This document shows, in pieces, positions 3,041 to 64,000 of a DNA stretch of 64,000 bases (position 1 is the first letter of the stretch; every line of letters starts with the position of its first letter). The notes beneath the pieces were generated by a model. The model did not search any database and was not told the origin of the DNA. It saw only the letters and a list, made by a program, of their open reading frames with translations. The stretch is from Oxalobacteraceae bacterium OTU3CAMAD1 (GTDB lineage Bacteria > Pseudomonadota > Gammaproteobacteria > Burkholderiales > Burkholderiaceae_D), in assembly GCA_024123915.1 (NCBI GenBank), contig CP099650.1, positions 4,650,001 through 4,714,000 on the forward strand, in the 5' to 3' direction. The translations under genes and the position numbers were made by a program.

Positions 3041-4876
3041 ATGACCAACAGCACCACCGCCAGCACCCCGTCCGCAGTCGCGCCCAACGTCAACAGGGAA
3101 CAAAAGAAAGGCAGCATTTCCACCCTGCGCGGCCTGCTGCCGTTCCTGGCGCCCTACAAGCGTCAATTCGTCATGGCCGGTATCGCGCTGGTGGTCGCCG
3201 CCTGCGCCACCCTGGCCATTCCGGCCGCCTTCAAGCAGATGATCGACCTCGGTTTCGGCGGCACGGGCGACAAGAGCATCAAGCACGTCGACCTGGTGTT
3301 CCTGGCGCTGTTCGGCGTCGCCACCGTGCTGGCGCTGGCCACTGCTGCGCGATTTTATACCGTCTCCTGGCTGGGCGAACGGGTCACCGCCGATATCCGC
3401 AGCGCCGTCTACAAGCATGTCGTCACCCAAAGCCCCGAGTTCTTCGAGACTACGCAGACCGGCGAAGTCCTGTCCCGCATCACCACCGACACCACGCTGA
3501 TCCAGGCGGTCGTCGGCACCAGCATCTCGATGGCGCTGCGTAATGTGCTGCTGTTCATCGGCGGCCTGGTGATGTTGTTCGTGACCAGCGTCAAACTGTC
3601 GGCCATCATCATCGGCCTGCTGGTGTTGACGGTACTGCCTATCGTGATGTTCGGCCGCCGCGTGCGCGAGCTGTCGCGCGACTCGCAGGACCGCGTGGCC
3701 GACGCCTCGGCCATGGCAGGCGAAATCCTCAACGCCATGCCGACCGTGCAGGCATTCACCCACGAGAAGATCGAATCGAACCGCTTCGGCGCCTCGGTCG
3801 AAGGCGCGTTCAAGACCGCGATGCGCCGCATCCGCGCCCGCGCGCTGCTGACGATGATCGCCATCGTTCTGGTGTTCGGCACCATCGTCTTCGTGCTGTG
3901 GCTGGGCGCCCACGCCGTGCTGTCGGGCGACATGACCGGCGGCGACCTGGGTCAGTTCATCCTGTACGCCTCGATCGTGGCCGGCGCCATTGGCGCCCTG
4001 TCCGAGGTGATGGGCGAAGCGCAGCGCGCCGCCGGCGCCACCGAGCGCCTGCTGGAACTGATGGCCGTCAAATCGAATATCCAGTCGCCGGCCAAGCCGC
4101 TGGCGCTGCCGCCGCGCGCCGCCAACGGCGCGGCCTTGACTCTGAGCGACGTCACATTCTCGTATCCGTCGCGGCCCGAAACGGCGGCGCTGGGCCACCT
4201 GTGGCTGGACATCAAGCCTGGTGAAACGGTGGCCGTTGTCGGCCCTTCCGGCGCCGGCAAGACCACGCTGTTCCAGCTGTTCCTGCGCTTCTACGACCCG
4301 CAAAGCGGCAGCATCAAGCTCGATGGCGTCGACATCACGCAGCTCGACCTGCACACGCTGCGCGACGCCATCGGCATCGTGCCGCAGGATACGGTGATCT
4401 TCTCGGCCGACGCAATGGAAAACATCCGCTACGGCCGCGCCGGCGCCACCGACGAGGAAGTGACCCAGGCCGCAAAGCTGGCCGCCGCCCACGAATTCAT
4501 CGAGCGTCTGCCGCAGGGCTACAAATCGTTCCTCGGCGAGCGCGGGGTGCGCCTGTCCGGCGGACAGCGCCAACGCATCGCCATCGCGCGCGCTTTGCTG
4601 AAAAATCCGCCGCTGCTGCTGCTCGACGAAGCCACCAGCGCGCTGGACGCCGAATCGGAGCGCCTGGTGCAAAAGGCGCTGGAAGCGGCGATGGTCGGCC
4701 GCACCACCGTCATCATCGCCCACCGCCTGGCGACGGTGCAGCGCGCGGACCGCATCATCGTCATGGAAGACGGCAAAATCGTCGAAACCGGCACCCACAC
4801 GTCGCTGGTGGCGCTGGGCGGCATCTACGCCAACCTGGCCGCACTCCAGTTCCACAACGTCCACACCGCCCATTGA
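3041..4876 (+). CDS. MsbA-like ABC exporter (fused permease-ATPase)
   Basis: 611-residue half-transporter. After a polar N-terminus comes an ABC type-1 transmembrane domain of six helices (about residues 35-330), with the coupling-region motif ETTQTGEVLSRITTDTTLIQ. A full nucleotide-binding domain follows: Walker A GPSGAGKTT near residue 401, Q-loop PQDTVIFSA, signature LSGGQRQRIAIARALL near 505, Walker B LLLLDEATSALD and the H-loop IIAHRLATV. A homodimer would form the exporter in the inner membrane, probably for lipids or drugs as in the MsbA/LmrA group. The substrate is not evident. It is the first gene after a 50-base gap and lies upstream of the aldolase, with no obvious functional link. 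Confidence 0.92.
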   Translation: MTNSTTASTPSAVAPNVNREQKKGSISTLRGLLPFLAPYKRQFVMAGIALVVAACATLAIPAAFKQMIDLGFGGTGDKSIKHVDLVFLALFGVATVLALATAARFYTVSWLGERVTADIRSAVYKHVVTQSPEFFETTQTGEVLSRITTDTTLIQAVVGTSISMALRNVLLFIGGLVMLFVTSVKLSAIIIGLLVLTVLPIVMFGRRVRELSRDSQDRVADASAMAGEILNAMPTVQAFTHEKIESNRFGASVEGAFKTAMRRIRARALLTMIAIVLVFGTIVFVLWLGAHAVLSGDMTGGDLGQFILYASIVAGAIGALSEVMGEAQRAAGATERLLELMAVKSNIQSPAKPLALPPRAANGAALTLSDVTFSYPSRPETAALGHLWLDIKPGETVAVVGPSGAGKTTLFQLFLRFYDPQSGSIKLDGVDITQLDLHTLRDAIGIVPQDTVIFSADAMENIRYGRAGATDEEVTQAAKLAAAHEFIERLPQGYKSFLGERGVRLSGGQRQRIAIARALLKNPPLLLLDEATSALDAESERLVQKALEAAMVGRTTVIIAHRLATVQRADRIIVMEDGKIVETGTHTSLVALGGIYANLAALQFHNVHTAH

Positions 4877-40722: not shown

Positions 40723-41160
40723 ATGAATCTGACCTATGCTTACCCTCGCAGCCGCTTCGAGCCAACCGCCTTGGTGGACCTGAACGCCAAGGCCGAGCGC
40801 GAGCGGTTATCGAAGTCGGCCCTCAAGGGCTTTTTCAAGCTCGCCGCCACGTGGCATGTGCGCGACGAGGACGCCCGCCAGCTGCTGGGCGGGCTGTCGA
40901 GCAGCGCCCTGTACGAATGGAAAAAGAACCCGGAACGCACGCTGGAGGTGGACTGTATCACCCGCATTTCCTACCTGCTGGGCATCTACAAGGCGCTGCA
41001 CATCATCTACGGCGACAAGCTCGCCGACGAATGGGTCAACCTACCCAACAACAACCAGATTTTTGAAGGCCGCACGCCGCTGGCGTACATGCTGGGCGGC
41101 GGCCTGCTGGCGATGCAAACCGTGCGTCAATTATTAGATGCGCGCCGCGGAGGATTGTAA
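40723..41160 (+). CDS. Xre/MbcA-family antitoxin
   Basis: 145 residues. The N-terminal part (RLSKSALKGFFKLAATWHVRDEDARQLLGG) is helix-turn-helix-like, and the C-terminus has the toxin-binding domain of the MbcA/ParS/Xre group: ITRISYLLGIYKALHIIYGD, ADEWVNLPNNNQIFEGRTPL, AYMLGGGLLAMQTVRQLLDA. It neutralises the RES toxin next door and probably represses the operon. The stop codon is directly followed by the toxin GTG. Confidence 0.9.
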   Translation: MNLTYAYPRSRFEPTALVDLNAKAERERLSKSALKGFFKLAATWHVRDEDARQLLGGLSSSALYEWKKNPERTLEVDCITRISYLLGIYKALHIIYGDKLADEWVNLPNNNQIFEGRTPLAYMLGGGLLAMQTVRQLLDARRGGL

Positions 41161-41850
41161 GTGCCGGTCAGCCTGATTCCACCCCTTACCACGCTGCGCC
41201 AGTTCGACACTTGCCGTTTGCTGCCATCCCGGTTCGCCGACCTGGAGGATTCCGTGCTGTCGCCGCTGGCCGACAGCGACGACATGCTGCGCGACCTGTT
41301 CGACCTTGACAACGCCACCAACGCGCGGCTGCGCACGCAAAACGGCGGCTCGGCCGGCATCAACGTCGATGAACTGGTGTTCGGCGTGCCGAACTTCCGC
41401 ATCGTAAACGCAGCCTTCACCTACGCGCATCCGCAGGGCAGCCGCTTCAACGACGGCCGGCGCGGCGCCTGGTACTGCGCCTTCGACGTGGAAACCGCGC
41501 TGGCGGAGGTGAGCTTTCACAAGGCGGTGGAATACGCGGAAATCAACCGCTTCGACGACAGCGTGCAGTATCAATGCATGCTGGCCGACTTCACCGCCAC
41601 CTTCCACGACCTGCGCGGCCAGCCGCGCTACGACGCCTGCCTGTCGCCGGCCAGCTACATCGAATCGCAGACACTGGCCGAACGCCTGCTCGACGGCGGC
41701 TCGCTCGGCATCATCTACCCCAGCGTGCGGCGTCCGAGCGGCACCAACCTGGCCTGCTTCCGCCCCGCCTTGGTGGGCAACGTGCGCAAAGGCGCCGCCT
41801 ATCGCCTGACATGGCAAGGCAGCCCGGAACCGACCATCGACATTATCTGA
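41161..41850 (+). CDS. RES domain toxin (NAD+-degrading family)
   Basis: 229 residues, GTG start immediately after the antitoxin stop. The RES fold is shown by GSRFNDGRRGAWYCAFDVET with its Arg and Tyr, the Glu in ALAEVSFHKAVEY, and the Ser in YPSVRRPSGTNLACFRP. Characterised RES toxins (MbcT and relatives) consume NAD+ when free of the antitoxin. All three signature polar residues are present, so activity is plausible. At 229 residues it is longer than minimal RES toxins (about 150-180), with an N-terminal extension of about 70 residues. Confidence 0.9.
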   Translation: MPVSLIPPLTTLRQFDTCRLLPSRFADLEDSVLSPLADSDDMLRDLFDLDNATNARLRTQNGGSAGINVDELVFGVPNFRIVNAAFTYAHPQGSRFNDGRRGAWYCAFDVETALAEVSFHKAVEYAEINRFDDSVQYQCMLADFTATFHDLRGQPRYDACLSPASYIESQTLAERLLDGGSLGIIYPSVRRPSGTNLACFRPALVGNVRKGAAYRLTWQGSPEPTIDII

Positions 41851-50412: not shown

Positions 50413-50802
50413 CTAATATTCGAAGATTTCAGTACGAGATCCCAATCTTGGCACCGCTACGACAAAATTGCGCCACGCTCCCAAAATTCTTTGAAAGCGA
50501 TCGATGTCAATATCCCTCTTGAAACTTTCATCCTCTAACGAGTAAATTTCAGCCTTCTCGCCACACAGGTATGCTCCCCAAGTCTCTCTCGACCAATCTT
50601 GACTGTCTGCTTCGCCTGACTTAACAGCAGCGACCGCGCGCAGCCCTTCATCCAACCAAGAAACAGACTTGGCGTAACCGAGCCCTCCATCGTCCATTAA
50701 TAAACACCCAACGATATCGATGACACCTTCGGTTTCATTATCGGAGCGGCAAACTGGCTCGACCTCGCCATTTATCGACTCCCAGCTAAAATACACCTCC
50801 AT
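50413..50802 (-). CDS. acidic orphan protein, immunity-like
   Basis: 129 residues, start ATG with AAGG 8 bases upstream. Acidic, cytoplasmic, no motif I can name: MEVYFSWESINGEVEPVCRS, VIDIVGCLLMDDGGLGYAKS, WSRETWGAYLCGEKAEIYSL. Base composition is much poorer in G+C than the neighbours. The size, charge and position downstream of a TpsA/CdiA-like exoprotein suggest an immunity-type protein, but no cognate toxin is visible. Function not assigned. The 234 bases upstream (50803-51036) show no convincing gene. Confidence 0.6.
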   Translation of the reverse strand: MEVYFSWESINGEVEPVCRSDNETEGVIDIVGCLLMDDGGLGYAKSVSWLDEGLRAVAAVKSGEADSQDWSRETWGAYLCGEKAEIYSLEDESFKRDIDIDRFQRILGAWRNFVVAVPRLGSRTEIFEY

Positions 50803-51036: not shown

Positions 51037-51462
51037 TCAATCCTCTAACCAGCCCCCCATCGGCCCCTTGATTTTGCCAAAATTGTAGTTTCCAAAATCA
51101 CGAACAAACCCAGTAGTCAATTTTTCGTCAAACTTCACCAACATAAAATCCCCAGATGTTCGTCCTTCTTGAATAAACAAATCTTCCACAAAAATTTCCA
51201 ACGGTTCGCACTTTAATTTACCCATGGCCCGAACTTTATAAAATAGCAAAGAACGCCCACCACCTAAACTAGGAACCATACGTAATATTTGATACATCAT
51301 GTTCTGGTTTGCTATTTTCAACCTATATGGAAAATCGAAATCCTCGGGAAGATGATCGCCCAAAATAAACAAGCCGTCTCCCCTATCCACAAGCCATCCA
51401 GTAACTTCAACATTACTATCATGATCAAACATCGGATTTTTCAAAAGGTCTTTAACATCCAT
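51037..51462 (-). CDS. orphan protein of unknown function, immunity-like
   Basis: 141 residues, AT-rich gene. MDVKDLLKNPMFDHDSNVEV, GWLVDRGDGLFILGDHLPED, FYKVRAMGKLKCEPLEIFVE and LVKFDEKLTTGFVRDFGNYN suggest a beta-rich cytoplasmic domain with an OB-like character; I do not recognise the family. It sits in the string of small genes after the exoprotein. Immunity or accessory function is inferred from place only. Confidence 0.6.
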   Translation of the reverse strand: MDVKDLLKNPMFDHDSNVEVTGWLVDRGDGLFILGDHLPEDFDFPYRLKIANQNMMYQILRMVPSLGGGRSLLFYKVRAMGKLKCEPLEIFVEDLFIQEGRTSGDFMLVKFDEKLTTGFVRDFGNYNFGKIKGPMGGWLED

Positions 51463-51508: not shown

Positions 51509-51718
51509 TCATCCACCTCGTTTAAGAAGTTCTAAATCTCTCTCATCAACGGTCCAAACATCAAGCGACTCTCCATCACAATCAATGAACTCAACTTCAT
51601 ATCGAGAGTCTTCAGATTCAAAAACCATTAATACAGCGCCAAGCATTCCCTTCGTGATATTTTCTTCTAAAGAGCGCGCTGCTTTTACAACGTCATAATC
51701 CAGAAATTTGGTTCTCAT
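51509..51718 (-). CDS. DUF4926-like small protein
   Basis: 69 residues from ATG at 51718; the frame extends 24 bases further but the shorter start matches the family. KFLDYDVVKAARSLEENITK, GMLGAVLMVFESEDSRYEVE and EFIDCDGESLDVWTVDERDL correspond to the DUF4926 pattern (a ligand-less SH3-like barrel with YEVEFvd-DGet). DUF4926 proteins often occur next to toxin modules; here none is seen. Confidence 0.65.
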   Translation of the reverse strand: MRTKFLDYDVVKAARSLEENITKGMLGAVLMVFESEDSRYEVEFIDCDGESLDVWTVDERDLELLKRGG

Positions 51719-51781: not shown

Positions 51782-52102
51782 TTACTGTTTACACTCTTCC
51801 ATAGTCCGGTAATAATCTTTAAGTGAGCATGTCCCACCCCAACCGTCTTTGTATCGAAATCCCTGACGAAACATACATTGCTCAGCGCGAGCCTTCTCCT
51901 CCACTGTCGCGCGTACGCCGGAAAAACCTCCAACATTCGGGTAGCCGCAGGCCAACATGGCTAGCTTAACATCATCCTCAGAGCTCCCCACTTTTATCAA
52001 CATCTCAAAATCTTGGGGTGGTGGTTGAAATGGTTTACTAACACAACCGAAGCTTAAAACTGCGAATCCAAAAATTGCTGCAAGCCGGCTTTTATTCTTC
52101 AT
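51782..52102 (-). CDS. small lipoprotein with CMxxxGFRxKDG motif (copy C)
   Basis: 106 residues. Signal peptide with lipobox (RLAAIFGFAVLSFGC), so a lipoprotein with mature Cys at about residue 20. The mature part has AMLACGYPNVGGFSGVRATV, ARAEQCMFRQGFRYKDGWGG and a Cys-rich end (TCSLKDYYRTMEECKQ). It is a close paralogue of the broken gene just upstream on the same strand, and shares the CMxxxG(F/Y)R core with the lipoprotein overlapping the exoprotein. Located in the inner or outer membrane facing the periplasm. Function unknown. Confidence 0.8.
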   Translation of the reverse strand: MKNKSRLAAIFGFAVLSFGCVSKPFQPPPQDFEMLIKVGSSEDDVKLAMLACGYPNVGGFSGVRATVEEKARAEQCMFRQGFRYKDGWGGTCSLKDYYRTMEECKQ

Positions 52103-52157: not shown

Positions 52158-52426
52158 CTACTGACATTCCTTTAGATCTAGAATATTTGGCAAGGAGCAA
52201 ATACCCGGGGAGCCGTCTTTATGGCGAAAGCCCGACTTAACCATGCATTGCTGAGCACGAGCATGCTCCTGAATTGTAGAGCGAACTCCGGAAAATCCTC
52301 CAGCATTAGGATAACCACATGCCAACATCGCCTTCTTAACAACTTCCTCAGATGTCGAATTTTTGTCCACATTGCAAACTCTGGGGGAGCGGGCAGTTCA
52401 AGGCCCAGAACTACGGCGCCCCACAA
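52158..52426 (-). pseudogene. frameshifted, truncated paralogue of the CMxxxGFRxKDG lipoprotein (copy B)
   Basis: The 3' part in one frame reads DKNSTSEEVVKKAMLACGYP, then GGFSGVRSTIQEHARAQQCM and GFRHKDGSPGICSL, nearly the same as the intact gene downstream. The matching upstream residues (LELPAPPEFAM, aligning with the Pro-rich segment after the intact gene's lipobox) are in a different frame, so a frameshift lies near 52368-52375. No signal peptide remains: the frame begins within the 3' end of copy A. A 70-residue product from GTG at 52370 is possible but would be cytoplasmic. Confidence 0.7.
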
Positions 52427-52779
52427 GACGGCATCGCTCTGGAAATTTCGTTGTCATAACACTGCTGTGTAGAGCGATACCCCTTCTTAAGCATACAACG
52501 CTGCCAATCGTGAAATAGACGGAAATCGGTATCGCGCTCAGTTTCCCCTTCACGTTGAGCTGCCCTGATAGTTTCCGGGCGAAAGCCAGTATGAAGGGTA
52601 TAACCTCCGCCGCATTGCGCACTCTCTACCAAACGGCTTTCACTCGTCATGCCTGGCTTCTCCCAATATTCCAAGGTCGCTTTGACCGGTTCCAAATTCA
52701 TTGGAACAAACCCAAAACCACTGGAACAGCCGCCGGTGAGAGAAAGGACCAACAGGATCACATAAACATTCATCTTCAT
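52411..52779 (-). CDS. small lipoprotein coupled to the exoprotein (copy A)
   Basis: 122 residues from ATG at 52779, which overlaps the exoprotein stop as ATGA. Signal peptide and lipobox MNVYVILLVLSLTGGC put the mature Cys near residue 17. Mature part: KATLEYWEKPGMTSESRLVE, QCGGGYTLHTGFRPETIRAA, then HDWQRCMLKKGYRSTQQCYD with the CMxxxGYR core shared by copies B and C. Position and coupling suggest co-production with the exoprotein, as an immunity, tethering or secretion accessory lipoprotein. Family unnamed to me. Confidence 0.8.
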   Translation of the reverse strand: MKMNVYVILLVLSLTGGCSSGFGFVPMNLEPVKATLEYWEKPGMTSESRLVESAQCGGGYTLHTGFRPETIRAAQREGETERDTDFRLFHDWQRCMLKKGYRSTQQCYDNEISRAMPSCGAP

Positions 52780-55700
52780 TTTAATGCACCTATAAACACA
52801 GAAATTGCGCGCCAAACCTCGGGAGGAAGGAGTTCCGCTGCTGCGAATGGCGACGCAACCGGAATTGCTACCGCAGCCCAGGTATCGTAAGTGGTACGCA
52901 CCGTGGGGGACATTCCCCTCGATATGTTCCCTTCCTCGTCATATAAGCCGCTGGCCTTTCCGCCTATATAATCATGGCTACCCGAAAAAGTCTCGATAAG
53001 CTGATCCTGCCAACTTCCTGGTGCATAGGCTTTCCCAAACAGAGTTCCCACCATACCCTGAACACCACCTGTCGGACCAGCAGCTTTTTTCCCCTCCTCG
53101 GTATTCATAAACGCTGAAAGTGACATTCCGACCGTTTTCTCGTCAAACTGAACTTGTCCTTGCGCATTAAGCAGGAGTTGAGTCCGGCCAGCGGCATCCA
53201 AAACAGCTTTGCCGTCTGGCCCCTGCAAGGTCATGCAGCGCTCATTGCTGGCCCCACAAATCAGATCCAAATCCACACGCGTGCCCCCAACTTTTTGACC
53301 GTCCCCTCGCACACCATCGCTAGGGCCAGTCAAATTATCGAATTCCGTCTTGCCATCAGTGATACCAGCAAATTTCCCTGAATCCTCAACCATCAATTGG
53401 CGCATCGTATTCGCCGCAGCCGACAACCCTTCCTTAGTCAGCGCCGAGCCCGCGTTGCCTGTGACCGCGCCAATCAGCACATTCATCACCTTCTCTTGCG
53501 TGAAGAGGTCATTGAGCTGTTCTTGAAGCTGAACCTTATCAGCACCCGTAGCGTTTTTGACTTGCTCTTGCAGCGCGGTTCTCTTGCCATCAACATAGCT
53601 ACTCACGACAGAAGTAGCAAGGGAACTGGCCGCCTGGGTAATCGCAACCTGCGATTTCATCTCCTCCATCAGCTTCTGTCCGTCCCATGCTTGAGTCAGC
53701 GCGCCGGTGTTTCCCACACTGTTTTCAGCAGTAACACCGCGCGCGATGCCAGCGACAACTCCAACTGCATCCTGTCCGGTCAAAGCGAACTGCTGCGCGC
53801 CATTGGTGATCGTAATCGCGCCGGCGCTGATGCCGCTGAAAGTTGTGCTCCCCTGACTGCCACTGGCGCTGCCGACCCCGGAACTAACCCCGGCTTTGCC
53901 ATCTGCGCTGGCCGCCTTCTTTTGCGCCTCGGTTAAATTATCTGGCAAAGAGCTCTGGTCTCCAAGCTTGGTGCTGTAAGAACCAGAGAACGAGTAGCCG
54001 CTAGCACTATACGTATCCTTATTCTGCAGGTCGCTGGCGGTCAGACTTCCCGTCGTCAAAGTATTTTTATCCAGATCAACCGCTACCTGGCTACTACTCA
54101 GCACGCCGCCCTTGAGGTCGGTATTGCCGGCGACCGTCACCTGGAAACCACCCGCGCCAGACTTAATACCGCTTTGTTCCAGCACGGAGAGGAAATCGCC
54201 GTTGACCTTCGATTTTCCGATATTGCCACCCACGGTACTTACACCATAGCAGAACGGAGGAATACAAAGACTAGCGTTCAAGCCGGAACTGCTTTGCTTA
54301 CTGTCAAACTTGCTACTGTCCTGCAGGCTTTCGATATTGAGGTCTCCACCAATCTGAGCCACCACGCTGTCGCCCGAGATTACGCCACCTTTCAAGGTGG
54401 TATCGCCGCCGCTAGTCACCGTTACCTTTTTGCCCGCGTTGACGTGCGAGTTGGTGTAGCCGATATCATCGCCATCAGCCTTGCCGCGCGCCTGACTAAC
54501 GGCAAGGTCGATGGTGAAGCCGTTTGACGCGCCTCCAATGCCAAAACCGATGCCAATGCTCGCGCCACTGGACTTATTAGTGCTATGCTGGCTGACCGTA
54601 TTTTCCGCAGCCAACAGATTGACATCGTTGTCCGCAGATAGCGACACATCCCCGCCCGCCTTGATGTCGCTACCAATGGCTGTCAGATTGCTGTCAGTAC
54701 CGCCCCCGGTAGCCTTAATACTGACGTTACCCCCCGCGATAATTGTGGAGCCGACAGCCGTCTCGCTGGTCCTCACCACATTGTTTTCGCTCTTCGAATT
54801 CCCCAAGCTAATACTCACCCGAAGACCACCATCCTTGATGGCGGCCAGCGAGCTCGACATGCCTGACACCGCGCCAGCCGCGGTCAGCGCAGCTAACGCC
54901 TGCATGCGGCTGTCGCCGACGCCCTGCGCTGCCTTGACCATGCCACTTACGCCCTTGGCCGCCTCAACGATCGGGACCGTAACAGTGCCGCCGATCGCGG
55001 TCTTGCTATAGGTCGAGTGGTCTGTGCTGTCGTTGATATTCGTCGCACCTGAGATCAACACATCCTTCGCGACAATGCTGATGTCACCGGTAGGTGAGGC
55101 GACATTGCTCGACGTCTGCGTGTACTGCCCGCCCGCCTTCAACGTCACATTGCCGCTAAGGCTGGCGATCTGGCTGCCCACCTGCGTCACGCTCTCGGCC
55201 GTGCCGTCGTTGGTGGTCTTGACGGTGCCCACCGCCGCCTGGAAGCGCGTTCCTATAGAGCCGGATTTCTTGCTGCTGCTGGCCGATTCGCTGTCGACGC
55301 TGTTCTCGGCGCTGACGATGCTCAGGTCGCGCTTGGCGTCGATGACGATGTCCTTGTCGGCCACCACCGTGCTGCCGGTGATGATGGTGTCGCGACCGCT
55401 GGTCGCGCTCACGCTGCCGCCGCTGAGCACGCTGCCCACCTGCGTGACCGTGTTGCTGCTGCCGGTCTTGTTATCCTGGCTCTTGGTGTAGCCGACGCCT
55501 TCGGTGATGTCGAGCGAGAAACCGCTCTTCTTGTGTTCGGCACTGTGGTTCTCGCTGCCCGTCTGCGCGGCGCTCGACACCAGCAGGTCGCGCCCGGCGT
55601 TCAAGGTCAAGGCGTTCTCCGCCGTCAGCTGGCTGCCGCCGATGACGATGTCATTGCCCGATTTGACCGAGACCGAGCCACCGCTGACGTTGCCGCCGAT

Positions 55701-58700
55701 CACATTGCTCACGCTGCTGTAGTCGGCCGTCGTGTCGCTGCTCTTCTTGAAAGTGCTCTTCGATTCGCGGTGGAAGGCCACGTCGGACAGGTGGTTTTCC
55801 TGTACCTGGGTGATACTGACGTCGCCGCTTGCCGCCAGCGACACGTCGCCGCCGCCGGCGATGTTGCTGCCGGCGATGGCCAGCCCACCGGCGCCGGCGT
55901 CGCCCGCCTTGATCGTCAGGTTGCCGCCTGCGGCAACCGTGGCGCCAACGACGGTTTGGTCTTCGTGGATGATCTTGTCGTAGCTCTTGCTTTTCGGATC
56001 ATTTTCCTGGTGCGTCTTGACCTCGTCGACGACCGCGGCGATGGAAATATCGCGCCCTGCCACCATCGTACCGTTGCCGGTGGCGCCCAGATTCACTTGC
56101 GTGCCGCTCAGCTTGATGTCCTGCCCCGCCTTGAGCGACAGGTCGCCGGTGGTGCTTATCTGGCCGACCTTGTTGGTGATGCTGCTGTCGTTCTGCCGGT
56201 TGCCGTTGACGTCGGCGACATAGGCGCTGCCGGTCTGGATGGCGTTGAAGGCGATGTCGCGCCCTGCCTGGATGACGGCGCTGGCGGCGACAATGGTGCC
56301 GCCGGTGTCGGTGACGTCGCGTCCGGCCGAGATGCCGAGCGCGCCCGTGGCCGTGATGCTGGTCTGGTTCGACAGCGACGTGTAGCTGCCGCTTGTGTTG
56401 ACGCTGGCATACTCCTGCTTGACGCTGAGCGATTGGTTGATAACGTCGCGCTCGGCCTTCAAGCCGACGTCGCCGCCCTTGATGGAGCCGCCCTGGTTGA
56501 CGATGTCCTGCCCCGCGATCAGCACAGTACGACCGTTGCCGCCGTCGATCAGGCCGCCCCGGTTGACGATGCTGTCCGTGGTGTCGATCTTGACGCCTGC
56601 GCCGGTGACGAGCGCGCCGCTAGGTTTGACGGCGTCGTTGCCGGCGTGCGCCAGATAGACCTTCGGAACCAGCACCTTCTCGACGGTGCCATCGGGCAGC
56701 ATGACGGTTTCGGTTTCCATCCAGACGATGTCACTGGTCAGATGGCTGATCTGATCGGCCGTCAGCGCGATGCCGGGACGCAGGTTGAATTGCTGGGCGA
56801 AGCTGACGCCGCTAGTCAACAGCGCCTTGTAGCGGCTATCGTCGCTCTCGCCGGTGGCCGGCGCGCGGCCGGTCAGCTCGATCAACTGGTCACGCACCAT
56901 TTTTTGCTCGTAGAAGCCGTCGCCCAGGCGTTTCTGGGTGGTCGACGGGTCCATCGCCAGCTGGTTGAGCAGGTAATCGCTGCTGACCCAGTTGCCGTGG
57001 TTGGCGAATTGCGAGCGGGTTTCGAACACATAGCTGCCGTTGGCATCTGGATTGATGGTGGACAAGCCATTGGGCGAGACCTTGACCGCGTTGGCGTTGC
57101 CGCCGACTTGCGAGGCGCCCTGCGTCTGCCCGGCGCCGCGCCCGGTGGTAAGGTCGCCCAGCGCGCCGCCATTGGCGCCGCTGCCGTTGACGCGGTCCGC
57201 GCCGCGTGCGCCACCGGTGACGCCGCTGCCGTTGGCGCTGCTGGCATCGCCCGCATTGTTGACCAGACCGCTGCCGTTCGTGTCCAGCATGGTTTGGGCG
57301 TTGTTGCCCGTGCCGCTGGCGCCTGCCTGGCCGTTGGCGAGGGCGTTGTTGACCAAGCCGCTCGCGCCGTTCAGGCCGCCGACCGAGGCATGGTTGCCGA
57401 CGCCGCTGCCACCGACCTGTCCGTAGGCGTTGCCGCCGCTGCCGCCGCTGCCGGAGGCGTGGCTGGCGGCGGTGGCGATGTTGTTGCCGGTGGCGACGAC
57501 GTTGACGCTGTCGAGGATGTTGCCGGCCGTGCCGGCGGTGACGTCGACGTTGGTGAAGCTGCGTCCGGTGATGCTAACGCCTTTGCCGCCGGAGATCGTG
57601 CCGGCCGCTGTGCCGATCACCTCGTTCAAGGTCGGCATGGTGTAGGCGGTCACATCGCCGTCATAGGTCCGCCACGTACCGTCGAAGGTGTGGGCACGGT
57701 ACAGCGTGGCGCCTTCGTTGACGATGGCCGCGCCGCCGTCGATGACCAGGCCACCGTTGGCGATGATATTGCCGTACTGATTCATCAACGACTGGCCGAC
57801 GGTCATGTGCATATTGCCGCCGGACAGAATCTGCGCCAACGCACCGGATGTTGGGGAGATCTGATCTTCAATCGCCACGTGGTGCGCCACCCGCGATTGC
57901 TCCAGTTTGCCGGCCTCGGACTTCAGCGACCGTATCTTTTCGCGGTTGATGATGGTGGTCGGATCGTAGTAATTCGGCTGGGTCACGAAGCGCACGCAGT
58001 TCGCGGCACAACTGCCATACTGGTTGGAGAACGTCGGCCCTGAATCGGTCCAGCTGGTGACGTGATCGACATATTGGTAGGCGTTGCTCTGCGGGCCGCC
58101 CTGGTCCGGATTGGCCTGGTTGTCGGAGCTGTACAGATAGAACAGCTCGCGTGTGCCATCGCTCATCGATATACGGGCCTTGGCGCCGTAGGCGCTGTAC
58201 AAACCGCTTCCGCCGGCGACGAAGGCCGAATCGTTGGCGTGCGTACGTATCACGGCGCGGCCGTAGGTATTGCCGTCCGGCGCTACAAAGGTGGCGTTCT
58301 CAATAATATCGTCGGGATTGACGAAGTACACCTCGTGCGGGAAATAGTTGGCGGAGTTCGGGTCGAAATTCTTGTGGTTGTCGCCGTTGTGATACCACTC
58401 GGGCAACTGCATCTGCTTGGTTTCGTCGACCGTCTGCACCTTGACCAGCGAAACGTTCTCACGAATGTTGTTCAGCGTACCCGCGTTCAGCACCAGATCG
58501 CCAGCCGCTTCGATGGTTGACGAAATATTATTGACCACGGCCGTCTGCCCGCCCGTCAACGCGCCCACGATGGCCAGGCTGCCGGAACTGTAGATGGTCG
58601 CCCCGCCGGTGTTGTTCACCGTCCCGGACACGCCCAGGATCATCGAATTGGTCGCGCCCACCAGCGACGTCGCCGTCGTGTTATTGAGATTTTGCGCGGT

Positions 58701-61700
58701 CATCGTCAAATCGCCGCCGACGATGGCGTTGTTGTTGGTGACCGTGCCGCCGCTGACGATGTCGAGCGCGGTCTCGCCGTTGATCTCGCCGTCGTTGTTC
58801 AGGTCGCCCGCAGCCTTGATCGCCACGCCCTGCGCCTGAATCACGGCGCCGGCATTGTTGGTGACCGCGTTGCCGCTCAGCGTGAGGTTGCGCACCGCTT
58901 CAAAGGTGGCGTTGTTGGTGATGTTGCCCGTCACCGTCAGGCTCAGGTCGCGGTTCGAGTGGAACTGCTGCGTGCCGTTGCCTTGCGTGTAGTCGCCATC
59001 CATCGTCAGCGCCAGGTCGCGTCCGCCCTGCAGCTCGCCGTTGCCCGTCATCGTGTGCGTGACGACGATCAGGTCGCGGCCGGTGGTGATGTGGCCGCCT
59101 TCGTTGCTGAGCTGGTTCGTGGTCAGATTCAGGTCGCCTTGCGAGCCTGTCGCCGTTCCCAGATTGCCGCCGTCGTTCTTGACGACATTGGCGACGATCA
59201 ATGCGTTGCCGGCCGAGACGATGGAGCCGCTGTTGTTCAAGGTGGCGGCGGCCTGGTTGAAGGTCAGCGTGCCCGCGCTGTTGATCTTGCCCTGGTTGTC
59301 CAGTTGCTGCGTCACCTGCAGGTCGAGGTTCTTGCTGGTGGCGATATTGCCGTTGATGCCGCTGGTCAAGGTCGTCGATTTGATCACCAGGTTGCCGTTG
59401 CCGGCGATGGTGCCGTTGTTGCCGATCACGCCCAGGCTGGTGATGGTGGCGTCGCCGCTGCCGATGTTGATGATCTTGCCGCTGCCGTTGTCGATGGATT
59501 GCGCCGACAAGGTCAAGACCGATGCCGCGCCGATCGCTTCGATGACGCCGGCGTCGTTGCCCAGGGCGCCGGTCGCCTTGATCTCCAGGTCGCCGCCCGC
59601 GTGCAGCGTGCCCTGCGTGTTCGTCAGCGCGCCGTCGATGGCCAGTACCGCCTTGCCGTCCGACAAGATCTGTCCGCCGACATTGCTCAAGCTCTTGCCG
59701 GTGACCGTCAGCTCGGCGCCGCTGTCCTTGGCGGTGGCGATCTGGCCGCCGTCGTTGACGATGGCATTGGCCACGAACGTGGCCTTGTCGCCGGCGACGA
59801 TCTTGCCGTTGTTGTTCAGATTGGCGGCGGATTGGTCGAACACCAGTGTGCCGGTGCTGGTGATGTCGGCGTGGTTGTCCAGTTGCTCGGTGACCTTCAG
59901 CAACAGATTGTTGCCGGCGCCGATGGCGCCGCCGGTGTTGTTGGTCAAGGTCTTGGCGCTCAGATTGAGGTCGCCGTTACCCGCCAGCACGCCGCTGTTG
60001 ACGATGCTGCTGTCGCTGACCAGATTGGTGTCCCCGGTGCCGACGTTGACGATACGCCCCGCCGTGCTGTCGATCGCGCCTGCCTTGATCTCCAGCTTGC
60101 TGGCCGCGCCGCCGGCCTCGATGGCGCCGCCGGTATTGTCCAGCGTCCCCGTCGCGCCGATGTCGACGTCGCCGCCCGCCTGTACCTTGCCTGCGCTGTT
60201 ATCGAACCTGCCGCCGCTGGTCAAATCGGCGTCGCCGCTGGCCAGGATCTTGCCGCCACGATTGCTGATGGCGTCGGCATCGACCTCGATGTCGGCGCCG
60301 GAAGCGCCGGCCGTGGCGATCTGCCCGCCGTCGTTGCTGAAGCTGGCCGCGTTGAAGGTGGCCCGGCCGCCGGAGATCATTTGCCCGCTGTTGCTGAAGC
60401 TGGCACCCCATTGCATGAACTCCAGGGTGCCGGCGCTGCTGACCGTCCCCATGTTCTGCATCTGCTGCGTCACCGCCAGGGTCAGGTCGCCGCCGGCGGC
60501 GACCGTGCCGCCGGCGCCGTTCTGCGCCGTCCGCGCCGACAGGATCAGATCGCCATTGCCGGCGATCATGCCGTTGCTGGTGATGGCGCCGACGGCGCTG
60601 ATCGAGGTCAGCCCGCCACCCACGTTGACCAGGCGGCCGCTGCCGTTGTTGATGGCCCCGGCGCTGATCGTGAACACGCTGGCCGCGCTGGCCGTTTCGA
60701 TCACGCCGCCGGAGTTGCTCAGCAGGCCGCCGGCCGACAGGTCGAGCGTGCGCAGGGCCTGGATGGTGCCGCCCGTGTTGTTGACGGTGCCGGTAACGTC
60801 GAGCAAGGCGCTGCCATTGGCCAGCACGCTGCCGCCCTGGTTGCTCATGCTCTGGCTGTCGATCAGGATATCGGCGCCGCTGTTGTTCAGGGTCGCGATC
60901 TGGCCGCCGTCGTTGTTCAGCACGCCGGCCGCGATGTGCGCCTGACCCGCCGAGACGATCTGCCCCCGGTTGTTAACCACGGCGGTGGCGCGGCTGAAGT
61001 CGAGCGTGCCGCCGCTGCTGATGGTGCCACGATTGTCGAGCTGCTGCGCGACCGCCATGTCCAGGTTGACGCCGGACACGATATTGCCGCCGGCCTGGTT
61101 CTGCAAGGTATTGGCGACCAGGTTCACATCGCCGTTACCGGCGATCAGGCCGCTGTTGACGATGCCGTTCTGCGCGGAGACCGACGTGTCATTGGTGCCG
61201 ACGTTGACGATGCGCCCGCCGGTGTTGTCGATCGCGCCGGCGCCCAGGCTGAAGGTGCTGTCGCTGCCGATCGCTTCGATGACGCCGCTCGTATTGTTGA
61301 GCACGCCGCCCACGTCAAGCCCCATGTCCTGCCTGGCCTGGATGGTGCCGCGCGTGTTGTCGGCCGTGCCCGCCACGGCGAGCTGCGCGCTGTGGTCGGC
61401 GAGGATGGCGCCGTCGCGGTTGCTCAGGCTGCCGCTGGTCAGCGCGATATCGCTGCCGGAACCTTTTACCGTCGCCAGTTGGCCGCCATTGTTGTCGAAC
61501 GCGCCCGCGCTCAAGGTCGCCTTGCCGCCGGAGATGATGGTGCCGCTATTCTGAACCGCCGCCGTCACCTCGGTGGAATCCAGCGTGCCGGTGCTGTTGA
61601 TCGCGCCAAGATTTTGCAGCTCGCGCGTCACGCCCAGGGTCATGTCGCCGCCGGAGAAGACGGTCGCGCCGGCCGTGTTGCGCAAAGTGTCGGCGGTGAC

Positions 61701-64000
61701 GTCCAGCTTGCCGCTGCCGGCCACCAGGCCGCCATTCAGCAGCAAGGCATCGGCGCCGACATGGGTGTCGCCGGTGCCGACGTTGACGATGCGGCCGCCG
61801 GTGTTGTCGATCGCGCCGGCCTGCACCTGCATGACGCTGCCGGCGCTGATCGCTTCCAGCACGCCGGCGGTGTTATTGATGGCACCGCCCGCGCTGACTC
61901 GCAGGTCCTGCACCGCCTGGATCACACCCTGGGCGTTGTTCAGCGCGCCGGTGAGCGTGAAGATGGCGTTGCGGTCGGCTTGGATCAGGCCGCCACGATT
62001 GGAGACGGCGGCGGCCGTGATGCCGACGTCCGCCTGTGACTGTTTCAGCGTGGCGATCTGGCCGCCATCGTTGTTCAGCACGCCGGCGGCGAGCTGCATT
62101 TCACCGCCGGCGACGATGCGCGCGGCGTTGGTCAGGGTGGCGGTCGCCAGGGTCGAGGTCATGGCGCCGACGCTGCTGATGATGCCGTTGTTGTCGAGTT
62201 TGTCGCGCACGGCCAGTTGCAGCGCGGCGCCGGAGGAGACGGCGCCGCCGGCGTTGTTGGCCAGGGTCAGCGAGGACACGCTCAGGCTGCCGTTGGCGGC
62301 GATCAGGTTGTTGTTCTGGATATACGATGCCGAGGTCACGCTTGAATCGCCGTTGCCGGCGCTGACGATGCGGCCGTCGGTGTTATCGATGGCGCCGCCG
62401 CCGATGTGCATCGCGCTGGTGGCCGCCAAGGTCTCGATGATGCCGTTGCGGTTGTCGAGCAAGGCGCCGGCGCCCAGTGCCAGGTCGCGCCGGGTCTGCA
62501 CCACGCCGTGCTGGTTGTCGGCCGCGCCGCTGACGGCGATGTCGCCGGCGCCGTCCGACAGGATGCGGCCGCGCTGGTTGCTCAGGCTGTCGCTCTCGAT
62601 GGTGAGGTTGGCGTCCGACTTGGCCGCCGTGGCGATGTCGCCGTCGTCGTTGTTCAGCCGCCCGGCCTTGATCAGCAGGTCGCCGTTGGCGCTGACGAGT
62701 CCGGTGTTCACCAATTCTGCCGTCACGCGGCTGAAGGCCAGCGTGCCGTTGCTTTGGATGGCGCCGTCGTTTTGCAGGCGGTCGCTCACGCCCAACGTCA
62801 TGTCCAGGCCCGACGTCACAGCGCCGGTGGTAGTGTTGTCGAGGGTTTGCGCGTTCAGGGTCAACGCGCCGTTGCCGGCGATCAGACCGCTGTTGAAGAC
62901 ACTCGTGGCGGCGGCGACGTTGGTGTCGCCGCCGCCGACGTTGACGATGCGGCCGACGGTATTGTCGATCGACAGCGCGCTGACGTCCAGTTTCCCGAGC
63001 GCGCCGAGTACTTCGATCACGCCGCCGGTGTTGTCCAGCGCGCCACCGGCGCCGATCTGCATCTCCCAACCGGCCTGCATGGTGCCGAGATTGTTGTTGA
63101 TTGTGCCGGTAAAGTTCAAGCTGGCGCTGCCGCTGGCGATGATTTTCCCGCCGCCGTTGTCCAAGGTGCCGCCCAATAATGACATCTGGGGCACGAGGGT
63201 GCCGGTGGTCGTGATCAAGCCCCGGTTGACGAGGCCGTCCGCCACCACCACCATGCCGTCGGCCGCGCTAACCTGGCCGTAGTTGATGACCTGCGCCGTC
63301 CCGCCCTGGAGCGCCAACTTGGCGCCGCCATTGATCAAGCCATAGTTGGTCAATTCCCGGGTCACCGCAACGCGCAAGTCGCTGCCGCTGGTCATCGTGC
63401 CGCTGTTCTCAATGACCGGCGCGCTCATCTCCACCTGTCCGTTGCCCGCGATCAGGCCACTGCTGACGATGCTGCTGGAGGCGTTGATGTCGGTGTCGCC
63501 CAGGCCGACGTTGACGATGCGGCCCGCGGTATTGCGGATGGCGCCGGCCTGCACGCTCAGCTTGCTGAACATGCCGGCGGCCTCGATCGCGCCGCTCTGG
63601 TTGAGCAGCGTGCCGGCCACCGTGATGGCGGCGTCGCGCTCGGCCAACATCAGGCCGGAAGAGTTGTCGAGGCCACCTTTTCCGGCGGTGACGTCGAGGT
63701 GGCGATCGGCGATCACCTTGCCGCCGCGATTGCCGATGTCCTGCGCGCTCAGCGAGACGTCGGCGCCGGAACCGGCCGCCGTGCCGATCTGGCCGGCGGC
63801 GTTATTGGCGTGCGCCACCGCGACCGTGAGGTCGTCGCCGGCGGCGATGCGGCCGGAGTTGTTCAGCGTGGCCGCGTCCTCGGTGAAGTCGAGCTTGCCA
63901 CCGCTGCTGATGTCGCCGCTGTTGTCCAGCTGCCGCTGGATGGCCAGTTCCATGCTGGTGGCCGACTGCACCGTGCCATCGTTGCGCACGGTCTGCGCGG
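52776..64000 (-). CDS. filamentous haemagglutinin/CdiA-like TpsA exoprotein (N-terminus outside window)
   Basis: About 3740 residues visible; the frame runs off the window edge, so the signal peptide and TPS secretion domain are missing. From the visible N-terminus: degenerate beta-helix repeats with an exact 193-residue period (to about 59.4 kb); a non-repeat domain with LPEWYHNGDNHKNF and NREKIRSLKSEAGKLEQS; a Gly/Asn/Ser-rich linker (57.08-57.46 kb); SDYLLNQLAMDPSTTQKRLG; FHA-2 type haemagglutinin repeats; and a C-terminal domain (MRQLMVEDSGKFAGITDG, KVGGTRVDLDLICGASNERC, GSWQDQLIETFSGSHDYIGG) ending VWRAISVFIGALK. No VENN pre-toxin motif or toxin domain is recognised. Likely a two-partner-secreted adhesin; the TpsB partner is outside. 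Confidence 0.92.
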   Translation of the reverse strand, partial: AQTVRNDGTVQSATSMELAIQRQLDNSGDISSGGKLDFTEDAATLNNSGRIAAGDDLTVAVAHANNAAGQIGTAAGSGADVSLSAQDIGNRGGKVIADRHLDVTAGKGGLDNSSGLMLAERDAAITVAGTLLNQSGAIEAAGMFSKLSVQAGAIRNTAGRIVNVGLGDTDINASSSIVSSGLIAGNGQVEMSAPVIENSGTMTSGSDLRVAVTRELTNYGLINGGAKLALQGGTAQVINYGQVSAADGMVVVADGLVNRGLITTTGTLVPQMSLLGGTLDNGGGKIIASGSASLNFTGTINNNLGTMQAGWEMQIGAGGALDNTGGVIEVLGALGKLDVSALSIDNTVGRIVNVGGGDTNVAAATSVFNSGLIAGNGALTLNAQTLDNTTTGAVTSGLDMTLGVSDRLQNDGAIQSNGTLAFSRVTAELVNTGLVSANGDLLIKAGRLNNDDGDIATAAKSDANLTIESDSLSNQRGRILSDGAGDIAVSGAADNQHGVVQTRRDLALGAGALLDNRNGIIETLAATSAMHIGGGAIDNTDGRIVSAGNGDSSVTSASYIQNNNLIAANGSLSVSSLTLANNAGGAVSSGAALQLAVRDKLDNNGIISSVGAMTSTLATATLTNAARIVAGGEMQLAAGVLNNDGGQIATLKQSQADVGITAAAVSNRGGLIQADRNAIFTLTGALNNAQGVIQAVQDLRVSAGGAINNTAGVLEAISAGSVMQVQAGAIDNTGGRIVNVGTGDTHVGADALLLNGGLVAGSGKLDVTADTLRNTAGATVFSGGDMTLGVTRELQNLGAINSTGTLDSTEVTAAVQNSGTIISGGKATLSAGAFDNNGGQLATVKGSGSDIALTSGSLSNRDGAILADHSAQLAVAGTADNTRGTIQARQDMGLDVGGVLNNTSGVIEAIGSDSTFSLGAGAIDNTGGRIVNVGTNDTSVSAQNGIVNSGLIAGNGDVNLVANTLQNQAGGNIVSGVNLDMAVAQQLDNRGTISSGGTLDFSRATAVVNNRGQIVSAGQAHIAAGVLNNDGGQIATLNNSGADILIDSQSMSNQGGSVLANGSALLDVTGTVNNTGGTIQALRTLDLSAGGLLSNSGGVIETASAASVFTISAGAINNGSGRLVNVGGGLTSISAVGAITSNGMIAGNGDLILSARTAQNGAGGTVAAGGDLTLAVTQQMQNMGTVSSAGTLEFMQWGASFSNSGQMISGGRATFNAASFSNDGGQIATAGASGADIEVDADAISNRGGKILASGDADLTSGGRFDNSAGKVQAGGDVDIGATGTLDNTGGAIEAGGAASKLEIKAGAIDSTAGRIVNVGTGDTNLVSDSSIVNSGVLAGNGDLNLSAKTLTNNTGGAIGAGNNLLLKVTEQLDNHADITSTGTLVFDQSAANLNNNGKIVAGDKATFVANAIVNDGGQIATAKDSGAELTVTGKSLSNVGGQILSDGKAVLAIDGALTNTQGTLHAGGDLEIKATGALGNDAGVIEAIGAASVLTLSAQSIDNGSGKIINIGSGDATITSLGVIGNNGTIAGNGNLVIKSTTLTSGINGNIATSKNLDLQVTQQLDNQGKINSAGTLTFNQAAATLNNSGSIVSAGNALIVANVVKNDGGNLGTATGSQGDLNLTTNQLSNEGGHITTGRDLIVVTHTMTGNGELQGGRDLALTMDGDYTQGNGTQQFHSNRDLSLTVTGNITNNATFEAVRNLTLSGNAVTNNAGAVIQAQGVAIKAAGDLNNDGEINGETALDIVSGGTVTNNNAIVGGDLTMTAQNLNNTTATSLVGATNSMILGVSGTVNNTGGATIYSSGSLAIVGALTGGQTAVVNNISSTIEAAGDLVLNAGTLNNIRENVSLVKVQTVDETKQMQLPEWYHNGDNHKNFDPNSANYFPHEVYFVNPDDIIENATFVAPDGNTYGRAVIRTHANDSAFVAGGSGLYSAYGAKARISMSDGTRELFYLYSSDNQANPDQGGPQSNAYQYVDHVTSWTDSGPTFSNQYGSCAANCVRFVTQPNYYDPTTIINREKIRSLKSEAGKLEQSRVAHHVAIEDQISPTSGALAQILSGGNMHMTVGQSLMNQYGNIIANGGLVIDGGAAIVNEGATLYRAHTFDGTWRTYDGDVTAYTMPTLNEVIGTAAGTISGGKGVSITGRSFTNVDVTAGTAGNILDSVNVVATGNNIATAASHASGSGGSGGNAYGQVGGSGVGNHASVGGLNGASGLVNNALANGQAGASGTGNNAQTMLDTNGSGLVNNAGDASSANGSGVTGGARGADRVNGSGANGGALGDLTTGRGAGQTQGASQVGGNANAVKVSPNGLSTINPDANGSYVFETRSQFANHGNWVSSDYLLNQLAMDPSTTQKRLGDGFYEQKMVRDQLIELTGRAPATGESDDSRYKALLTSGVSFAQQFNLRPGIALTADQISHLTSDIVWMETETVMLPDGTVEKVLVPKVYLAHAGNDAVKPSGALVTGAGVKIDTTDSIVNRGGLIDGGNGRTVLIAGQDIVNQGGSIKGGDVGLKAERDVINQSLSVKQEYASVNTSGSYTSLSNQTSITATGALGISAGRDVTDTGGTIVAASAVIQAGRDIAFNAIQTGSAYVADVNGNRQNDSSITNKVGQISTTGDLSLKAGQDIKLSGTQVNLGATGNGTMVAGRDISIAAVVDEVKTHQENDPKSKSYDKIIHEDQTVVGATVAAGGNLTIKAGDAGAGGLAIAGSNIAGGGDVSLAASGDVSITQVQENHLSDVAFHRESKSTFKKSSDTTADYSSVSNVIGGNVSGGSVSVKSGNDIVIGGSQLTAENALTLNAGRDLLVSSAAQTGSENHSAEHKKSGFSLDITEGVGYTKSQDNKTGSSNTVTQVGSVLSGGSVSATSGRDTIITGSTVVADKDIVIDAKRDLSIVSAENSVDSESASSSKKSGSIGTRFQAAVGTVKTTNDGTAESVTQVGSQIASLSGNVTLKAGGQYTQTSSNVASPTGDISIVAKDVLISGATNINDSTDHSTYSKTAIGGTVTVPIVEAAKGVSGMVKAAQGVGDSRMQALAALTAAGAVSGMSSSLAAIKDGGLRVSISLGNSKSENNVVRTSETAVGSTIIAGGNVSIKATGGGTDSNLTAIGSDIKAGGDVSLSADNDVNLLAAENTVSQHSTNKSSGASIGIGFGIGGASNGFTIDLAVSQARGKADGDDIGYTNSHVNAGKKVTVTSGGDTTLKGGVISGDSVVAQIGGDLNIESLQDSSKFDSKQSSSGLNASLCIPPFCYGVSTVGGNIGKSKVNGDFLSVLEQSGIKSGAGGFQVTVAGNTDLKGGVLSSSQVAVDLDKNTLTTGSLTASDLQNKDTYSASGYSFSGSYSTKLGDQSSLPDNLTEAQKKAASADGKAGVSSGVGSASGSQGSTTFSGISAGAITITNGAQQFALTGQDAVGVVAGIARGVTAENSVGNTGALTQAWDGQKLMEEMKSQVAITQAASSLATSVVSSYVDGKRTALQEQVKNATGADKVQLQEQLNDLFTQEKVMNVLIGAVTGNAGSALTKEGLSAAANTMRQLMVEDSGKFAGITDGKTEFDNLTGPSDGVRGDGQKVGGTRVDLDLICGASNERCMTLQGPDGKAVLDAAGRTQLLLNAQGQVQFDEKTVGMSLSAFMNTEEGKKAAGPTGGVQGMVGTLFGKAYAPGSWQDQLIETFSGSHDYIGGKASGLYDEEGNISRGMSPTVRTTYDTWAAVAIPVASPFAAAELLPPEVWRAISVFIGALK
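59467..63520 (-). repeat. eight tandem 579-base units in the exoprotein gene
   Basis: The codons for (R/K)(I/L)(V/I)N(V/I)G recur; the plus-strand anchor TTGACGATGC or its variant begins at 59467, 60046, 60625, 61204, 61783, 62362, 62941 and 63511. Six intervals are exactly 579 bases (193 residues) and one is 570. Further units probably continue past the window. Confidence 0.9.

Follow-up and report, generated by a model that had tools for sequence, protein, structure and literature searches.

What is the role of a small lipoprotein gene whose start codon overlaps the stop of a giant exoprotein gene? This question is raised by a locus of Oxalobacteraceae bacterium OTU3CAMAD1, the genome of which forms one contig of 7.48 Mb (CP099650.1). 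We analysed a stretch of 64,000 nucleotides of this contig (positions 4,650,001 to 4,714,000), hereafter the window, in which a gene for a 122-residue lipoprotein (52411..52779, - strand) lies directly behind a gene for a CdiA/TpsA-like exoprotein of the two-partner secretion (TPS) type. A first-pass annotation had put forward three roles for the lipoprotein: an immunity protein, a surface tether or a new TPS accessory factor. Our analysis retains the first and argues against the two others. The locus is very probably a cdiB-cdiA-cdiI operon of contact-dependent inhibition (CDI), in which CdiI would be a periplasm-facing lipoprotein, the antidote to an envelope-acting toxin carried by the tip of CdiA. 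This reading is built on sequence, namely on the anatomy of the locus, the pairing of tip and lipoprotein, their covariation, a tip swap and a downstream array, and from these we infer toxicity, binding, location, disulfides and action on the envelope.

A lipoprotein gene overlaps the end of a cdiA gene

The genes are arranged in the order cdiB-cdiA-lipoprotein gene on the - strand. The window contains the part of cdiA that spans 52776..64000 (-). Its product, P0012, is a protein of 4511 residues with an ESPR domain (PF13018), a TPS domain (PF05860) and haemagglutinin repeats (PF13332), and its start falls beyond the window, at about window-equivalent 66311. Directly upstream of cdiA, and likewise outside the window (66354-68072 equivalent), lies cdiB, whose product matched ShlB (E 4e-102) and two POTRA domains.

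The cdiA frame ends in ...GCA TTA AAA TGA, with the stop at 52778-52776, and the ATG of the lipoprotein gene occupies 52779-52777. Bases 52776..52779 (ATGA, - strand) are common to both genes, and the coordinates thus bear out the four-base overlap that had been noted at first pass. A Shine-Dalgarno-like AGGTG is found inside cdiA (52787..52791, -), 7 nt 5' of the lipoprotein ATG. The earlier description of the product as a lipoprotein also held. Its N-terminus, MKMNVYVILLVLSLTGGC, is a signal peptide with the lipobox LTGGC (judged by eye), and it contains five cysteines, C18, which would carry the lipid, C56, C95, C107 and C119. The mature lipoprotein is hydrophilic, with a grand average of hydropathy (GRAVY) of -0.76 and a best 19-residue window of 0.56.

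The tip of CdiA is a putative mobile module followed by a lipobox protein

The first-pass annotation saw no recognisable toxin tip on the exoprotein. Homology does recognise one: the last 100 residues of CdiA (52779..53078, -) form a C-terminal module, our proposed toxin domain, which recurs in 49 long TpsA-like and two Rhs-type proteins. Using the last 198 residues of CdiA as a query, we matched 51 proteins, our own included. In 49 of them (P0012-P0060, again with our own) a near-terminal motif is shared, D..hE.F.G.HD...YD..GN or close to it, where h is a hydrophobic residue. We refer to these as long TpsA-like proteins because a TPS domain is not listed for all (P0052 and P0058 are without it). 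P0061 contains the region before the tip and ends early, and P0062 is an Rhs/SpvB-type protein (Rhs_assc_core by NCBIfam) whose final ~90 residues match the tip. The tip is also borne by an Rhs-type carrier (Rhs_assc_core) at locus L034 (genome G641, contig C222). One of the two Rhs-type carriers, P0062 and L034, is of the SpvB/TcdB type. Since CdiA and Rhs-type carriers share this tip, it may have been exchanged between secretion types.

The tip follows the pattern GGxQG..LFG..Y..GSWQDxLIExFxGxHDxIGG...GLYDxxGN...PFAxAELLPPEVW. In a 120-residue segment aligned for 16 tips, G24, G25, Q27, G41, D45, G53, H55, D56, Y66, D67, G70, P97 and F98 were invariant; on adding L034 and removing two plasmid rows, D67 became only nearly invariant and F51 became invariant. 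Weaker similarity to Rhs-type carriers begins before the tip, from CdiA residue ~4290 (29% over residues 4290-4496 for G641 and 4295-4498 for G433, two divergent carriers), and a mobile unit of ~200 residues is therefore possible. No Pfam or NCBIfam model matched the tip significantly; DUF5990 appeared in one of the 16 tips at chance level (E 0.18), and at L025 a DUF637 match stayed below its cut-off (E 0.008). A search of solved structures with the tip returned a single chance-level match (E 0.79), and none of six HD/YD-type motif strings was found in the text consulted of a survey of polymorphic toxins (PMC3482391). As judged from these comparisons, the tip is a mobile module without a family model.

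Tip loci were collected with a tip profile, A2, searched against 195 genomes of the family (11 with matches), 321 of the class (4), 398 of the phylum (5), 21 of the genus of genome G189 (10) and 74 of our own genus (2, one of them false). These samples overlap, and all but the G189-genus set include our own genome. The matches, together with two on plasmids, gave 26 places, which were read. Two were false and were dropped, L022 being a flagellar-type protein (by eye) and L036 unrelated, which left 24 real tips; L031 and L029 are halves of one split tip and were counted once. At 22 of the 24 loci, a lipobox protein was encoded directly behind the tip; the genomes concerned extend from our own family as far as a different class of the phylum (G641), and two Enterobacter plasmids are included. 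Lipoboxes were called by script at 18 of the 22 loci and by eye at four (L013, L021, L025 and L034); at L016 the script flag fits a different Cys than the aligned lipobox, which was read by eye. One of the 22 lipoproteins, that of L028, is cut short at 72 residues. At L035 the tip reading frame and the lipoprotein start form one in-frame fusion, and at L029 the tip is frameshifted and the adjacent gene lacks the lipid Cys. Asp at position +2 after the lipid Cys was seen by eye at L018 only among the 22.

The four-base overlap between tip stop and lipoprotein start recurred at 16 of the 24 loci (the start at L013 being taken from the alignment), and at six more the lipoprotein start lies 2-11 nt beyond the last base of the stop, with TTG as the start at L032. 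The Rhs-type carrier tip of L034 is also followed by a lipoprotein with the four-base overlap, which indicates that the pairing does not depend on the TPS scaffold. A chance overlap had been considered as well; it was rejected given this recurrence and the existence of homologues. Incidentally, at the Enterobacter loci L010 and L011 the paired tip and lipoprotein are encoded close to traM of IncF-type plasmids, and the annotated gene start at L010 leaves out the signal peptide of the lipoprotein.

Tip and lipoprotein appear to vary together

A sequence query with the lipoprotein gave 11 proteins, our own included, and a profile gave 174. Relatives in the profile listing come from Pasteurella multocida, Histophilus somni and Rodentibacter, the neighbourhood being read for G446 (L024) only. 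The lipoprotein had no Pfam match and only chance-level NCBIfam matches (E 0.2), and NCBIfam matches at E 0.08-0.23 were disregarded throughout; searched with it, solved structures gave none up to E 1, and plasmids none. In the 195 family genomes, the lipoprotein profile A6 matched 25 times in 16 genomes. All 13 matches with E < 1e-11 were at tip loci, either directly behind the tip or in the adjoining array. Among the 12 weaker matches, two were further copies in G161, one was the truncated copy of the window (see below) and four (L050-L053) were read; L050 and L052 lie behind another CdiA tip remnant and another CdiA tip, respectively.

The A6 alignment has a mean column identity of 36% over 24 rows. 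Besides the lipid Cys, four cysteines are kept in a 12-row alignment and only two in the wider 24-row alignment; P0005, P0008 (partial) and P0011 (frameshifted) were left out of the later alignments. We then compared pairwise distances between tips and mature lipoproteins for 13 pairs, leaving out L018, L021, L025, L028, L029, L030, L034 and L035, and then three of the remaining 16 pairs, which had partial tips. The loci left out thus have an unrelated lipoprotein, or a tip or lipoprotein that is incomplete, damaged or located at a contig end. The two sets of distances were correlated (Spearman 0.69, Mantel p 2e-4).

What kind of toxin the tip might be

The conserved D45, E49, H55/D56, Y66/D67 and N71 would fit a small enzyme, and these polar residues lead us to favour one. 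In all 16 tips, however, a 19-residue stretch with a mean hydropathy of 0.9-1.8 lies at or beside the invariant PF, and this would fit an action on membranes, leaving membrane insertion possible. Thus, within the immunity reading, the toxin might be a membrane-depolarising ionophore instead of an enzyme, a variant that we consider tentative and rather unlikely. Besides the hydrophobic stretch, it draws on the report that E. coli has a large family of CDI ionophores (PMC11630599, as far as consulted). The same source describes the known CdiI of ionophores as small, very hydrophobic, two-helix proteins, a poor fit to the hydrophilic mature lipoprotein found here, and conserved polar D45, H55, D56, Y66 and D67 are not expected of a pore.

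In a second variant of the immunity reading, the tip would be a divergent Lipocone (SAA/Wnt-like) enzyme acting on lipid headgroups, and the lipoprotein would be the four-Cys immunity domain of Min-Wnt/prok-SAA toxins. The four cysteines kept besides the lipid Cys in the family core (12 rows) are what recommends it. Yet the SAW-clade motif sNxxGR was in none of the 16 tips, no tip had a significant Pfam match (one had DUF5990 at E 0.18), and only two of the four cysteines persist over 24 rows. We regard this second variant as quite improbable.

The lipoprotein gene appears to track the tip rather than the TPS scaffold

We searched 74 genomes of the genus with residues 3950-4100 of CdiA (E <= 1e-20) and obtained matches at 27 places in 18 genomes. 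Our own place apart, 26 were fetched, two of them from Duganella sp. 1411, and 24 were readable, L088 (which runs into N) and L106 (which ends early) being excluded. At 20 of these 24, the same scaffold bore other tips with no lipoprotein behind them. The remaining four (L092, L095, L099 and L105) have a lipoprotein of 267-293 residues with a four-base overlap, and they are the only ones among the 26 places with the motif GHSRG. Some of these calls were corrected by eye: L100 (a membrane protein of 84 residues, GRAVY 1.16) and L102 (soluble) had been flagged by script, and L092 and L099, read as lipoproteins, had not. As a side observation, GHSRG (lipase-like) marks a second type of CdiA tip, seen at L092, L095, L099, L105 and L052, each time followed by a lipoprotein; that of L052 belongs to the superfamily of the second lipoprotein of the window.

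A tip swap was seen in Duganella sp. 1411. Over ~1000 residues compared, 50-residue blocks of its CdiA are 60-96% identical to ours as far as residue ~4177 and 18-40% identical after it. Behind the different tip comes Imm8 (PF15586, E 5e-30) and then a lipoprotein relic, a decayed relative of the window's lipoprotein (81% over residues 22-75). The same pattern of displacement has been described for orphan CDI modules (PMC9086364, in the part consulted). Thus, as is characteristic of CDI, relatives differ in both the tip and the gene that follows it, as seen across the readable places, among them the locus of Duganella sp. 1411. The first-pass annotation had named an exoprotein C-terminus varying independently of the gene as evidence against a link, and this is not what is found here. 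Taken together, these comparisons indicate that it is the tip, and not the TPS scaffold, that the lipoprotein gene follows, which disfavours both roles tied to the exoprotein itself.

One of these is that of a TPS accessory factor of the BcpO type, that is, an outer-membrane lipoprotein aiding secretion or maturation of the exoprotein whatever the tip. The lipobox and the non-Asp residue at +2 do resemble BcpO, which is required for full CDI activity, and alleles 10-16 of BcpO, which lack a signal sequence, do change with the tip (PMC3415462, as far as consulted). Against it stand the 20 same-scaffold places without a lipoprotein, the lipoprotein behind the Rhs-type carrier of L034, the variability of the family as compared with the near-identical mature parts of the lipobox-bearing BcpO (alleles 1-5, 7 and 8), and the order cdiB-cdiA-gene instead of bcpA-I-O-B. 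An accessory role is therefore very improbable.

A downstream array of putative orphan immunity genes

Behind the lipoprotein gene, the - strand of the window carries a series of small open reading frames (ORFs). With the gene itself, profile A6 detected three lipoprotein copies in the window. The first of the further two is a truncated copy that has lost its N-terminus (52182..52394, -; E 8.3e-6) and is related to the next, a second intact lipoprotein of 106 residues from the same superfamily (51782..52102, -; E 5.1e-20, the profile match covering 51785-52102). Then come a 69-residue ORF (51509..51718, -), which may encode a small immunity-type protein, orf141 (141 residues; 51037..51462, -) and orf129 (129 residues; 50413..50802, -). 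Neither orf141 nor orf129 had a significant Pfam or NCBIfam match. A relative of orf141 lies directly behind another CdiA tip (L098; E 1.6e-26, 39%) and one of orf129 ~0.7 kb behind another (L083; E 7e-13, in two pieces), and both are putative orphan immunity genes. Between 50.0 and 52.5 kb, the G+C content drops to 0.40-0.52 per 500-base step, as against 0.636 for window bases 1-48000.

Relatives of the second intact lipoprotein were found at two other loci. At L052, one starts at a CdiA-like stop with which it shares one base; the CdiA-like frame is 54% identical to residues 4037-4097 of ours and its tip has GHSRG. At L050, one follows a short ORF similar to the end of the L052 tip (E 3e-8, 33%). 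Elsewhere, orphan tip fragments lie between lipoprotein copies (G161 and G047), or the lipoproteins are in tandem (G520 and G122). Orphan tip/immunity modules downstream, another feature of CDI loci, are thus represented here, by lipoprotein copies, orf141 and orf129 in the window and by tip fragments in G161 and G047. The other suggested role, a surface tether that binds the C-terminus of CdiA and anchors the filament to the cell, takes adjacency and translational overlap as signs of contact with that C-terminus, and is scarcely credible with Imm8 in the slot and only a lipoprotein relic in the tip-swapped relative, and with extra lipoprotein copies beside tip fragments, which would make little sense for a tether.

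Two neighbours lie apart from this array: an ORF just upstream of cdiB (L037, window-equivalent 68321-69205, + strand), presumably related to REP-associated transposases, and a toxin-antitoxin module at 40723-41850, made of an Xre/MbcA/ParS antitoxin and a RES toxin (PF09722 and PF08808).

Proposed role and points against it

The immunity reading may be put as follows. The tip, the last ~100 residues of CdiA, would be a mobile toxin module, and the lipoprotein would protect the producing cell from its own CdiA and from its siblings. Classic C-terminal toxin regions (CdiA-CTs) combine a motif such as VENN with an entry domain for the cytosol. Here the antidote is predicted to sit in the envelope and VENN-type motifs are missing, so the site of toxin action is probably the target's periplasm or envelope, not its cytosol. 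In CDI systems, the C-terminal half of CdiA waits in the periplasm of the producer (PMC11630599 and PMC9086364, in the parts consulted). A toxin active in the periplasm would require an antidote there, and a lipoprotein made by overlapping translation fits that need. The downstream copies would be immunity genes no longer in use, retained as an array of orphans. The lipoprotein form of the antidote suggests a poison acting in the outer layers of the rival, which is unusual for CDI.

A broader proposal could, in our estimation, go either way: the tip would represent an undescribed class of CDI/Rhs toxins working in the target periplasm or envelope without entry into the cytosol. The corresponding antidotes would be outer-membrane lipoproteins stabilised by disulfides and forming a large superfamily (CG...C[ML]..(K/R)GY), which would also serve the second, lipase-like (GHSRG) CdiA tip.

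Several observations weigh against the immunity reading or narrow it. The motifs VENN, (E/Q)LYN and WVHN were absent from the last 400 residues of all 49 long TpsA-like proteins, so classic CDI processing is not evident. The lipoproteins of L018, L021, L025 and L034 (107-216 residues) could not be aligned with the window's family, and a rule of one tip, one immunity family is thus not strict. The first-pass annotation had regarded homologues mostly away from TpsA genes as damaging. The strong A6 matches are at tips, which goes the other way, but among the four weak ones whose neighbourhood was read (of the 12), two (L051 and L053), longer and apparently two-domain lipoproteins, had no match to our CdiA in the stretch compared. 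The distance test covers 13 of the 24 loci, those with full tips and alignable lipoproteins. Moreover, the segment before the tip core (residues 1-45) correlates equally well with the lipoprotein (0.72), and common descent of the cassette may therefore explain the correlation as well as contact does. In the scaffold control, the ends of L089, L096 and L104 look broken, so an immunity gene may simply be missing there. Finally, action on the envelope is deduced from the signal peptide of the antidote.

If the immunity reading is right, it would provide a rule for annotating the "hypothetical lipoproteins" that follow filamentous haemagglutinins, and it would suggest a function for a tip, so far without a name, that both CdiA and Rhs-type carriers bear.

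Comparison with known systems

In the literature searched, which left most subscription journals outside, we found no case of CDI with lipoprotein immunity, and priority is not claimed; the phrase "immunity lipoprotein" does occur in a type VI secretion paper (PMC12992299, as far as consulted). The nearest lipoprotein of a CDI operon is BcpO of Burkholderia bcpAIOB, which is also small and predicted to reside in the outer membrane. BcpO alleles 1-5, 7 and 8 have a lipobox and 73-74 residues with a nearly identical mature part, lie behind bcpI and aid activity, and Asp at +2 is given as an inner-membrane retention signal (PMC3415462, in the part consulted). In contrast, the lipoprotein of the window has 122 residues, is variable and appears tip-specific. 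It lies directly behind cdiA, with cdiB upstream of cdiA, and not between an immunity gene and the TpsB gene as BcpO does between bcpI and bcpB, and it shows neither the near-invariance nor the tip-independence of BcpO. Nor does its mature part share the small, very hydrophobic two-helix hairpin of the CdiI of CDI ionophores, the toxin domain of which is a five-helix bundle.

Two other systems pair polymorphic toxins with lipoproteins. For Lipocone toxins, which share a four-helix core with pocket residues, tips with lipoprotein or membrane immunity are read as acting on the periplasm or membrane, and the immunity proteins include a four-Cys domain with four absolutely conserved cysteines (PMC12419801, as far as consulted). 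The polymorphic tip paired with a lipoprotein is alike here and the SAW-clade motif is missing; the likeness rests on sequence. Imm65, the partner of Tox-JAB-1, is a lipobox immunity protein listed for Bacteroidetes and the only apparent lipoprotein in the 2012 collection (PMC3482391, in the part consulted). The lipobox is shared, but the lipoprotein of the window matches no Pfam family.

The closest likeness is to CdiA-CT/CdiI of cdiBAI loci. As there, a TpsB gene adjoins a giant TpsA gene, whose product has an ESPR/TPS domain and haemagglutinin repeats, the tip is polymorphic and swapped, a small gene lies directly behind it, and an array of orphan immunity genes appears to follow. The differences are the lipoprotein nature of the putative immunity gene, the lack of VENN, (E/Q)LYN and WVHN and a tip outside Pfam and NCBIfam models. 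Since VENN is described as typical of Neisseria and gammaproteobacteria, and (E/Q)LYN of Burkholderia types, we take the lack of these two as a variant feature. CDI toxins described so far are mostly nucleases that reach the cytosol, and some act at the inner membrane as ionophores or pore formers (PMC9086364, PMC11630599 and PMC3415462, in the parts consulted). To these, a lipoprotein CdiI would, if the reading holds, add a third site of action for CDI, the envelope.
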